The notes beneath the pieces are model-generated. The model made no database searches, had not been told where the DNA came from, and saw nothing but the letters and a program-made list of their open reading frames with translations. Positions 23,320 to 37,979 of a DNA stretch of 41,557 nt are shown in pieces. The DNA is from Actinomycetes bacterium (GTDB lineage Bacteria > Actinomycetota > Acidimicrobiia > Acidimicrobiales > Acidimicrobiaceae). The stretch lies in the NCBI GenBank assembly GCA_021806545.1, contig JAJZXI010000004.1:1-41557 (forward strand). The letters run 5' to 3'. Made by a program: the position numbers and the translations under genes. Within the stretch, counting starts at the first letter, position 1. The number at the start of each line of letters is the position of its first letter.

Positions 23320-23370
23320 TTCGCTCCGTCTCCTGGCCGGATCCGGTCCGGCAACCGCCAAAACACGCTG

Positions 23371-23398
23371 AATGGCCCGGAGCACTCTCCGGGCCATT
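23371..23398 (-). terminator. 12-bp hairpin between tuf and rpsJ
   Basis: A perfect 12-bp GC-rich inverted repeat (AATGGCCCGGAG, four-base loop, CTCCGGGCCATT) begins about 11 bases after the tuf stop. On the minus strand it is followed by CAGCGTGTTTT, a short and delayed T-run. It could be a weak terminator, a processing site or a 3' end stabiliser for tuf mRNA. Confidence 0.6.
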
Positions 23399-23408
23399 CA
23401 CCGTAAAA

Positions 23409-24596: not shown

Positions 24597-24666
24597 CTTC
24601 TCCTGCTCCGTTGCTACTCACTGCGCCCACATGGCGCAACCTTGACCCATTACAGAACTACGTAGT

Positions 24667-31741: not shown

Positions 31742-34700
31742 CTAAATTCCTCTTTCTTGGCGTCCGTCATCTTCGTAGTCAACATTGCGCTCTGGGCGGC
31801 TGAGATTGATGCCGAGGTCCTCCGAAGCCGAGTATGCGTCCTCGTCAAGCTCACGCAACTGGACGCGTTCGCCGCTCGGAGAGAGTACATCGACATTGAG
31901 GCACAACGACTGCATCTCCTTGATGAGAACCTTAAAGCTCTCGGGGATACCAGGCTCAGGGATGTTCTCACCCTTCACAATCGACTCATAGACCTTCACG
32001 CGCCCCACCACGTCGTCGGATTTGATGGTCAAAAGCTCCTGAAGTGCGTAGGCCGCGCCGTAGGCCTCGAGTGCCCATACCTCCATCTCACCGAAGCGCT
32101 GCCCACCGAACTGCGCCTTGCCTCCAAGTGGCTGCTGGGTGATCATCGAGTATGGTCCAGTCGAGCGTGCATGGATCTTGTCATCCACCATGTGTGCGAG
32201 TTTGATCATGTACACATAGCCCACCATGACAGGGCTGTCATAGGGTTCGCCTGTGCGACCATTGAACAGCTGCGCCTTGCCATCCTCACCGACGAGCCGA
32301 TTCCCATCACGCGACTGCGGGTTGAGATTGATGAGCAGCTCCTTGATCGTGGGGAGCCCCCCTGCCTCTTCGGTCTCATCCCAATGAGCGCCATCGAATG
32401 ACGGACTGGCTACCCACGTGTTTGGAGTGGCTCGTGGCCTGGTCTTGCGAGGTGGTGTCTCGTTGCTCGTCTCGTCCTGGATCGGGGTCCAACCCCACTT
32501 TGCAGCAAAGCCAAGGTGGCCTTCGAGCACCTGGCCAACGTTCATACGAGACGGGACACCAAGCGGATTGAGGATGATGTCGAGCGGGGTCCCATCGGCC
32601 ATGCGAGGCATATCCTCCAAAGGAAGAATCCTCGATATAACACCTTTGTTGCCATGGCGCCCCGCAAGCTTGTCACCCTCGGAGATCTTGCGATGCTGAG
32701 CGACATAGACGCGGACAAGCTGATTGACTCCGGGAGGTAGCTCGGTGGAGTCGTCACGGCTGAACACCTTGATATCGATCACCTTACCGTACTCGCCATG
32801 GGGCACTCGAAGCGATGTGTCGCGCACCTCTCGCGACTTCTCCCCAAAGATTGCCCGCAAGAGGCGCTCCTCTGGTGTGAGCTCTGTCTCGCCCTTCGGG
32901 GTTACCTTGCCGACAAGGATGTCGCCAGGTCCCACCTCCGCGCCAATGCGAATAATGCCTCGCTCGTCGAGATCCGCTAGTGCCTCTTCCGAGAGGTTGG
33001 GAATATCCCGCGTGATCTCCTCGGCTCCGAGCTTCGTGTCGCGCGCGTCGGTCTCGAACTCCTCGATATGAATCGAACTGAGCACATCGTCGCGAACAAG
33101 ACGCTCCGAGATAATGATCGCATCCTCGAAGTTATAGCCTTCCCAAGGCATGAACCCAACGAGAAGGTTCTTGCCCAGTCCAAGCTCACCGTTCTGCGTG
33201 GCTGGGCCGTCAGCCAAGAGGTCTCCGGCCTCAACACGATCGCCCTGGTCGACCAAGGGACGTTGATTCCAGCACGTATTCTGATTCGAGCGCTCGAACT
33301 TCACCAACCGATACCGCTTGGTTCCCAGCGGTACACCGTTGACATCACTCTGGCCTTGGTCATACGTGACGACAATGGAGTCCCCAGTCACCTCAGTGAC
33401 AACGCCCGATCCCTTGGCCACCAGAACATCACCAGCATCGCGGCCTGCGCGCGCCTCGACGCCAGTGCCGACAAACGGAGCCTCGGGGATCATGAGGGGT
33501 ACCGCTTGCTTTTGCATGTTGGCCCCCATGAGCGCTCGGTTCGCATCATCATGTTCAACAAAGGGAATCAATGAGGTCGAGACGGAGACGACCTGCGAGG
33601 TAGACACGTCCATAAGGTCCACCTCTTGTGGCGTCGCCAACTCAACTTCGGAGGTCGATCCGTATGACACTTCGTTGACGCCAACCTTGACGACGGCTCC
33701 CTGGGGTCCTCGTCTTACCAGAATCTTCGGCTCGACAAAGCGCCCATCGGCATCGAGTCGGGCATTCGCCTGCGCAATGACGAACTCCTCCTCCTCATCA
33801 GCGGTGAGGTAGACGATTTCATCCGTCACCCTGCCGTCAGCCACCTTGCGGTAGGGAGTTTCGATGAACCCAAATCTATTGAGTCTGGCATAGCTTGCGA
33901 GCGCACCAATGAGACCGATATTCGGACCCTCTGGCGTCTCAATCGGGCACATGCGGCCATAGTGCGACGAGTGCACGTCGCGCACCTCGAACCCTGCACG
34001 CTCGCGCGACAGACCTCCGGGGCCGAGGGCCGAAAGCCGACGCTTATGTGCAAGACCAGATAGCGGATTATTCTGGTCCATGAACTGCGAAAGCTGGCTT
34101 GTAGAGAAGAACTCCTTCACAGCGGCCACCACCGGACGGATGTTGATCAAGCTCTGGGGAGTAATCGCCTCGACATCTTGGGTCGTCATCCGCTCGCGCA
34201 CAAGGCGCTCGAGCCTGGAAAGGCCGATCTTGAGCTGATTTTGGATCAACTCACCAACGCTGCGCACGCGACGGTTGGAGAAGTGGTCCTGGTCATCATA
34301 TCGATATCCGATCTCGCCGCTCGCGAGGTGGAGCATATACGATGCCGTTGCCACCACCTCGGCCCTCGAGAGGACTCCGGGTGTTTCGTAATCGGTGTCC
34401 AGTGGATGTCCAAGGATGTCTTCGAGCCGAGCGATCTCGGGCTTGAGTCGCTTGTCAATCTTGTAGCGGCCAACCCGGGTCAGGTCGTACCGCCGCGCCT
34501 GGAAAAAAGCCCCTTCGAGATACATCCGCGCCGCATCGGCATTTGGCGGCTCACCCGGGCGCACACGCTTGAACACCTCAAGCAGGGCATCCTCTTCGGT
34601 CTGGGCCTGGTCCTCCTTCTCCCACTGGGGAATCAGAAAGTCAAAGTGATTAACCAACTTCTGCAGATCACTCGGATCGGAAAAGCCAATCGCTCGCAAA

Positions 34701-35293
34701 AGCGTAAACAGGCTCAGTCGCCGCTTACGCGCGACGCGAGCACCCGCCTGAATGTCTCGCCCAGGTCGAGCCTCCACGTCGAACTCCAACCACTCACCCC
34801 GGTACGGGTTGATCGTAGCCGTCACAATCGTCCTTTGATCACGGCCCGGCTGGAACAAGACCCCAGGCGAGCGTACGAGCTGCGAGACGATCACACGCTC
34901 GGTGCCGTTGATCACAAAGGTTCCGCGATCCGTCATCAGGGGGAAATCACCCATGAAGACGATCTGCTCCTTGATCTCGTAGGTACTCTTATTGGAGAAC
35001 TTCGCACGCACAAAGATCGGTGCGGCGTAATTCATATCCTTCTCTTTGCACTCCTCGACGGAATATTTCGGGAAGGGAGCAAGGTCTGGATCGTTTGGGT
35101 CGTATTCGAGCTCCAGGGAGAGCTGGCCTCCGTAGTCCTCGATCGGGGAGATATCATGGAATGCCTCCGCCAAACCCTCCTCAAGGAACCAACGGAAGGA
35201 ATCCGTCTGAATAGCGATAAGATCAGGTAGCGGTAGGACCTGAGGAAGTTTTGCAAACGAGAAACGCTGGGGTGAGCGGTTAAGCAAGGTCAA
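31742..35293 (-). CDS. rpoB: RNA polymerase beta subunit, TTG start
   Basis: This is the full-length 1183-residue beta subunit. The start is TTG at 35293 with AAGGAG six bases upstream. The rifampicin-binding cluster is wild type: [20 protein letters not shown] then RLSALGPGG, with the Asp, His and Ser positions that mutate in resistant strains all unchanged. Other marks are [16 protein letters not shown] and the C-terminal [21 protein letters not shown] lineage-type insertion with [15 protein letters not shown] lies after [10 protein letters not shown]. Expression is probably set by the attenuator just upstream. Confidence 0.99.
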
Positions 35294-35324
35294 GTACTAC
35301 TCCTTAGGCGAGATCCGAAAACAC

Positions 35325-35367
35325 AAAAAAACTCACACAAGCGACAAGGTCGCTCAGATGAGTTTTT
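35325..35367 (-). terminator. Terminator-like attenuator between rplL and rpoB
   Basis: On the minus strand this reads AAAAACTCA, five bases, GCGAC-CTT-GTCGC, five bases, then TGAGTTTTTTT. A 9-bp outer stem and 5-bp inner stem are followed by seven T. It ends 31 bases before the rpoB start. This matches the position of the E. coli rplL-rpoB attenuator, which lets most transcripts stop after rplL. Partial termination here is inference. Confidence 0.8.
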
Positions 35368-35429
35368 CAAGAGCTCAGTTGTGGGCAAGACACTACGAGG
35401 TATAGCATAGATGGGTTAGCAGGCCGTGA

Positions 35430-35465
35430 GGTCGTTTGCGCCCGAAATGCTGAGCGCAAACGACC
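35430..35465 (-). repeat. 12-bp stem-loop after rplL
   Basis: GGTCGTTTGCGC (35430-35441) pairs perfectly with GCGCAAACGACC (35454-35465) across a 12-base loop, starting 20 bases past the rplL stop. There is no T-run, so it is more like an RNase III-type processing stem, as known in the E. coli rplL-rpoB gap, than a terminator. Confidence 0.65.
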
Positions 35466-35485
35466 GGTGATCGCAAGAGCGAGCG

Positions 35486-35878
35486 TTACTTCAGCTCGAC
35501 AGTCGCGCCAGCTCCTTCAAGCTGCGCCTTAGCCTTCTCGGCATCCTCTTTGGATGCCTTCTCCAAGACCGGCTTGGGAGCCGCGTCGACGAGATCCTTC
35601 GCCTCCTTGAGACCGAGATTCGTCAGTGCGCGCACCTCTTTGATGACCTGAATCTTCTTTTCACCAGCCGACGTCAGAATAACGTCGAACTCATCCTGCT
35701 CCTCTGCGGCCGCCGCTGCCTCACCGGCACCTCCACCGGCTACTGCACCAGCTGGGGCTACCGCCACCGGTGCTGCCGCCGTGACACCAAATCGCTCCTC
35801 GAACGCCTTCAAGAGCTCCGAAAGCTCGATGACGGTCATCTCCGAAATCTGATCGAGCAATGCCTGAACGTCTGCCAT
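35486..35878 (-). CDS. rplL: 50S ribosomal protein L7/L12
   Basis: L7/L12 forms the multi-copy stalk that recruits translational GTPases. The ATG at 35878 gives 130 residues: an N-terminal dimerisation domain ([20 protein letters not shown]), an Ala/Gly-rich hinge, and the C-terminal factor-binding domain ([20 protein letters not shown]). AGGA lies about six bases before the ATG. Confidence 0.98.
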
Positions 35879-35956
35879 TAGTTTCCTTTCGTGTCCCACT
35901 GGACGATTGTGCCAACTACTACGTTGCGCTATTTACTGTGAACTATCTCTCAAGCT

Positions 35957-37883: not shown

Positions 37884-37979
37884 GATTACTGAACTCCTTA
37901 CATTGAACCAGACAAGTATATAGGGTGCAACAAAGCCTGAATGCTACAGCGCTCCGTTGCTCGAGTGTGAACCCGAAAA

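Follow-up and report, generated by a model that had tools for sequence, protein, structure and literature searches.

The 192-nt gap between rplL and rpoB, both of which lie on the minus strand, appears to mark the boundary between two transcription units and, beyond it, to hold a self-contained leader, consisting of a promoter and an attenuator, that would control rpoBC; we put the probability of this reading at roughly 0.6. In this arrangement, a hairpin after rplL (stem 1) would form the 3′ end of the rplJ-rplL message, either as a terminator or as a stop for 3′-exonucleases after termination by Rho or by another route, and rpoBC would be transcribed from its own promoter, with a predicted start near 35397. 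About 75 nt into the rpoBC transcript, RNA polymerase would terminate part of the time at a second hairpin followed by seven T residues (stem 2 and T7), and only a fraction of the initiations, and of the read-through from rplL, would get to rpoB. The combination of separate promoters and an attenuator would then set stalk protein at a high level relative to polymerase.

The window analyzed here is the whole 41,557-nt stretch of DNA, from a source genome whose assembly has 161 contigs. Its RpoB is at most 76% identical to that of the closest named relatives, which are metagenome-assembled genomes labelled Acidimicrobiaceae, Actinomycetes, and once Acidobacteriota; from these we take the class to be, probably, Acidimicrobiia. 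Comparisons within the genus of the window (g1) used seven species, giving 21 species pairs, and f1 denotes its family. In the direction of transcription, the gap contains the rplL stop codon (35486-35488), stem 1 (35465-35430), TATGCT (35409-35404), an invariant leader that includes stem 2 (35368-35326), T7 (35331-35325), AAGGAG, and the TTG start of rpoB (Table 1). The true start of rplL is probably an internal ATG (MADVQALL...) rather than the listed GTG. The first-pass annotation of this DNA had described the two hairpins; the conserved promoter and leader that lie between the stems were absent from its account.

Table 1. Features of the rplL-rpoB gap and its flanking genes (window coordinates)
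Feature	Position	Strand	Remarks
rplL (L7/L12)	35486..35899	-	ORF list and translation; 92-97% identical within the genus
Stem 1	35430..35465	-	Hairpin without U-tract; probably forms the 3′ end of the L10-L12 message
Predicted -10 of the rpoBC promoter, TATGCT	35404..35409	-	Invariant in 7/7 species (alignment columns 80-85)
Predicted transcription-start region	35390..35398	-	Matches the actinobacterial rpoB nonamer TTGCCGTGC in diverged form; alignment by eye
Possible 8-codon upstream ORF, GTG...TGA (VSCPQLSS)	35367..35393	-	Stop codon reaches into the base of stem 2
Stem 2 and T7	35325..35368	-	Predicted from sequence to be an intrinsic terminator that attenuates rpoBC within its leader
Shine-Dalgarno of rpoB, AAGGAG	35300..35305	-	Invariant within the genus
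rpoB	31742..35293	-	TTG start at 35293

Folding of the whole gap gave an energy 4.0 standard deviations below that of shuffled sequences. An Rfam search of the 41.5-kb window and nine related loci returned only tRNAs and no family matching the gap, and in open-licence papers we recognised nothing on the rplL-rpoB gap in Acidimicrobiia or on the start-site nonamer described below.

Stem 1 had been reported as a perfect 12-bp stem-loop shortly after rplL, and it is present beyond chance. Its perfect arms (35430-35441/35454-35465) lie 20 nt past rplL, and 14 pairs form when the element is folded. Two perfect stems of at least 12 bp (loop 3-12) occur in the window, stem 1 and one after tuf; there were none in 20 shuffles of the window, and 12 bp was reached in 0 of 1000 shuffles of the gap. 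When the seven g1 species were aligned across 18 pairs, 7 pairs were changed on both sides, 3 varied on one side, 5 were invariant, and 3 departed from pairing only through unpaired cells (90.5% of cells paired), over a region in which identity among the species is 51-96%. Its length is 12-14 pairs in the window, and some relatives reach 18. As judged from these alignments, stem 1 covaries within the genus and is selected for pairing.

Hairpins in this position are widespread among the loci with a located rpoB and rplL end, to which our hairpin and terminator counts refer. Of 49 genomes, 41 have a hairpin that begins no more than 45 nt past the rplL stop, where shuffles predict 3.4; at a stricter threshold the count is 34 of 49 (1.7 expected). 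It is absent in 3 of 10 members of g4, in 4 of 15 genomes outside the family, and in 1 of 2 genomes of g7, and in the remaining g7 genome the hairpin found near rplL overlaps the -10. A tract of at least five T (T5+) is absent after stem 1 in all seven g1 members, so stem 1 does not qualify as an intrinsic terminator; such a tract follows the corresponding hairpin only in L013 and L062 (both g8, in the same family) and in L133. We consider that stem 1 probably closes the L10-L12 (rplJ-rplL) message. A dispersed repeat was rejected, as a genome search gave no second copy of stem 1; the only further match at E <0.01, taken as chance, covers 25 nt on the side of stem 2 and lies in a probable permease gene (L111). 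Stem 1 resembles the hairpin after tuf. This other perfect stem (14 bp, window 23369-23400) lies between tuf and rpsJ, is also without a direct U-tract, and is kept in four relatives.

Downstream of stem 1, TATGCT occupies the position of TATACT or TATGCT in related genera, and conservation of the g1 gap begins at this -10. No -35 was recognisable for it in g1, and a simple sigma-70 scan of the window did not call TATGCT at 35404-35409. The start nonamer in the window keeps 5-6 of the 9 letters of TTGCCGTGC. The g1 form is degenerate (T[CT]GTAGTGT), and all seven g1 members were missed by the regular expression used in the counts below; it was placed by ungapped alignment to g5, where the spacing of the -10 and TTGCCC is equal.

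Upstream of rpoB, TANNNT followed after 4-8 nt by TTG[CT][CG][CG]TGN was found at 78 of 133 loci, compared with 0.31 per shuffled set, and the spacer is exactly 6 nt in 72 of these 78 matches. This count took loci up to L196 with upstream stretches of at least 150 nt, same-genome duplicates being set aside. By group, matches were present at 15/33 loci of family f1, 13/20 of other families of the order, 11/21 named loci (L117-L136 and L175), and 39/59 of other actinobacteria. A TTG -35 at 16-18 nt accompanies 22 of the 24 matches in the order and named groups and 0 of the 15 inside the family, which must on this account rely on something other than a -35. The expression counted here is slightly wider than the actinobacterial element as defined by TANNNT, 6 nt, TTGC[CG][CG]TGN; in the window the -10 of this element is kept and the nonamer is degenerate. 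Among ten genomes picked for an exact rpoB element, the exact element matched once in the whole genome in nine and twice in one, and in each of six other actinobacteria the whole-genome count is one or two. Taken together, these sequence comparisons indicate that rpoBC probably has its own promoter between the stems. The nonamer reads TTGCCGTGC in Acidimicrobiia and TTGCGCTGC/G in other actinobacteria (for example, L021, L045, L117, and L155). Two coding interpretations of this region were tried and rejected: a conserved leader peptide starting at the TTG of the nonamer would differ in length among genera, from 2 codons up (by eye), and an extended ORF that would begin at TTGCCC, cross the terminator, and run on into rpoB is interrupted by a T-run deletion in L004.

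The leader from the -10 to rpoB (columns 76-196) is 0.926-1.000 identical in all 21 g1 species pairs. Over the first 600 codons of rpoB, four-fold sites are 0.32-0.42 identical in 19 of these pairs and 0.60 and 0.75 identical in the other two, and four-fold sites of rplL are 0.32-0.82 identical among the same species. Between L003 and L006, all 121 leader positions are identical at a four-fold identity of 0.40. When 395 genomes of the class were searched with the leader DNA, 3 matched, all of them members of the genus, the source genome included. This conservation alone does not prove a special regulator, because the leaders of other essential operons, namely the fusA-tuf gap and the rplK leader, are likewise highly conserved. 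In the fusA-tuf gap (window 24597-24666, 70 nt), 67 of 70 columns are invariant in five genomes; this gap contains a TTGCGCC...GGGCGCA stem. In the rplK leader (window 37884-37979), conservation starts at a -10 (TATATACTTGT, TATACT), and the stretch upstream has diverged.

Stem 2 had been annotated as a 9+5-bp hairpin with a seven-T run. The hairpin and the T-run (35325-35331) are real, and the hairpin (35326-35368) is longer than proposed, with 19 pairs counting G-U and one C-U mismatch. It lies ~30 nt before rpoB and has the features of an intrinsic terminator, a stable hairpin directly followed by a U-tract. On either strand of the window it is the sole hairpin scoring at least 24 with a T5+ tract, compared with an average of 0.05 in 20 window shuffles, and none of 2000 shuffles of the gap produced one; its significance rests on this strict scan, because a loose scan of the window gave no excess (9 found, 8.1 expected), which we put down to the limits of the loose scan. 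In the seven g1 species, 18 of the 19 pairs never vary. Covariation, which had been proposed as a check on both stems, is thus borne out by the 7 of 18 double-sided changes in stem 1 and is uninformative for stem 2.

A leader terminator with T5+ was found at 9 of 129 rpoB loci, in 7/7 members of g1 and 2/2 members of g5, two related genera. In g5, the apical stem is different and the pairing and T-run are retained; the g7 leader has a GC-rich hairpin without a strong U-tract. An RpoB tree of 28 rows unites these three groups as a clade (support 100/100) and does not resolve the branching among them. Because it occurs at so few loci and in only two related genera, the leader attenuator is, on this distribution, a local, lineage-specific innovation, and the earlier suggestion that the gap has conserved control across phyla gives way to convergence at most. 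Close genera without the attenuator get along without one. In g4 (L028 and L029), a strong hairpin lies ~130 nt before rpoB, just upstream of the rpoB -10 (GATGAGTCTATCCC...); it is terminator-like and stands before the promoter, not after it.

Attenuation of rpoBC, as the first-pass annotation had proposed, is the best reading of stem 2, and the cell probably throttles production of RNA polymerase there. Because every route into rpoBC passes stem 2, the terminator must be leaky or controlled.

The first-pass annotation had explained the gap by analogy with E. coli, with stem 1 as an RNase III site and stem 2 as a partial terminator of read-through from the rplJL promoter, and without a significant rpoB promoter. 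Both hairpins exist, the source genome encodes RNase III as well as Rho, and stem 1 is selected for pairing, reaching its greatest lengths in relatives. The order of the elements, however, is opposite to that in E. coli: in strain MG1655, where the gap after rplL measures 319 nt, the stem of the terminator spans nt 40-65 and is followed by U5, and the RNase III site lies further downstream, after the terminator. In the window, the U-tract terminator does not follow rplL directly and comes after stem 1 and the -10. The rpoB promoter that is conserved in relatives, with its -10 kept here between the stems, argues against an rpoBC fed mainly by read-through and against a stem 2 that acts on read-through only. 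As for processing, we found nothing specific to RNase III in stem 1; its 12-14 pairs are short for a two-strand cut by this enzyme, and in g8 and L133 a U-tract terminator takes its place. We regard the E. coli-type explanation as quite unlikely, and homology of the hairpin pair with that of E. coli is rejected on the order together with the narrow distribution of the attenuator.

Two further proposals concern how polymerase might pass stem 2. In one, a near-leaderless upstream ORF would be translated and a ribosome at its stop would block the 5′ arm of the terminator; full transcription of rpoBC would then depend on ribosomes engaging the leader, and polymerase synthesis would be coupled to translation capacity. 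A GTG ORF of 8-9 codons is present in 11/11 genomes of g1, g5, and g7, with the GTG 10 nt past the -10 and a stop that begins 1 nt before the hairpin, and the short ORF therefore ends at or before the hairpin in the whole clade. This geometry is kept despite a 3-nt difference in length and different hairpins among the three groups. Precedents exist in mycobacteria, where uORF-controlled attenuators of ilvB1 and whiB7 are described (PMC13236596) and mRNAs are described as commonly carrying small ORFs at their 5′ ends (PMC4633059). Nevertheless, the stop-at-hairpin geometry is suggestive only, because the three groups have a common ancestry, with letters such as TCTTGA in common, and we picked the start codon with the sequences already in view; among shuffled leaders, 11-12% for g1 and g5 and 1.5% for g7 also have a stop no more than 3 nt from the hairpin. 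The GTG has no Shine-Dalgarno, and the predicted start places it at ~+5, whereas leaderless initiation in mycobacteria is described as needing RTG at +1 (PMC4633059). The peptide is poorly conserved (VSCPQLSS or VSCPPLSS in g1, VLCPELSSL and VLCPEMSSS in g5, VRRPATTSS and VRLFAICSS in g7) and has no regulatory codon run, and the g7 hairpin has no strong U-tract, as noted above. Folds of partial transcripts gave no strong antiterminator; the sole candidate was a weak helix (TGAG/CTCA) with 4-5 pairs. We hold translation of this ORF with blocking of the terminator to be doubtful, and it is a shade more doubtful still that the ultraconserved leader of this one actinobacterial clade is a ribosome-gated switch through which ribosome supply sets the amount of RNA polymerase. 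The other proposal, that GCTCTTGAAAAAC before stem 2 is a boxA through which Nus factors let a modified polymerase pass the terminator, is very improbable. A boxA-like GCTC[CT]TTGAAAAC was found upstream of 16S in 12 of the 20 rRNA loci examined, and the g1 leader fits this core with one base missing. Against this, the candidate letters coincide in part with the terminator's A-tract, g5 departs from the boxA of its own order, the three rRNA leaders of g1 read GCACATTGAAAACTGAA, and the reading was made post hoc; a boxA in the rpoBC leader is a weak lead only. Within the order, the boxA-like GCTC[CT]TTGAAAAC precedes a conserved AGTGCGG-type box (L082, L084, L085, L087, L090-L095, L097, and L098), and the three rRNA leaders in the genus of the window carry a degenerate boxA-like form.

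The balance between ribosomes and RNA polymerase is an old question that has mostly been argued from E. coli. In the lineage studied here this balance appears to be set otherwise, by a separate rpoBC promoter and by a terminator gained within its leader. The start-site nonamer common to actinobacterial rpoB promoters offers a defined sequence on which experiments could be done in species that can be cultivated.

Compared with rplJL-rpoBC of E. coli, the common feature is a U-tract terminator in the gap that is able to lower rpoBC relative to rplL, with a stem of similar fold energy (-19.5 kcal/mol here and -20.5 kcal/mol in E. coli). The difference is that here the other stem comes first and the terminator stands in a leader behind the predicted rpoBC promoter. 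In the growth-rate attenuator of E. coli ampC, a ribosome in a tiny leader ORF blocks the terminator; the putative ORF described above would follow the same blocking logic, in a different gene and phylum and without a Shine-Dalgarno. The attenuators of ilvB1 and whiB7, as described in PMC13236596, also place a short ORF and then a Rho-independent terminator in the 5′ leader, whereas here the target is rpoBC, the ORF is putative, and neither a regulatory codon run nor a convincing antiterminator is present. For mycobacteria, PMC6181997 describes an rpoBC operon served by two promoters of its own, for which the work it presents detected no read-through, and gives CGCTATNGTT as the motif of promoter II. 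In the mycobacterial loci that we compared, this CGCTATNGTT is accompanied by TTGCGCTGG 6 nt after its -10, and on sequence we take the promoter II element to be the counterpart of the element described here. The mycobacterial arrangement has two promoters, and a set of 80 named loci, mycobacteria among them, yielded no leader terminator; the window has one predicted promoter and an attenuator; what the two have in common, going by the description in PMC6181997, is an rpoBC promoter of its own, predicted in our case, between rplL and rpoB.
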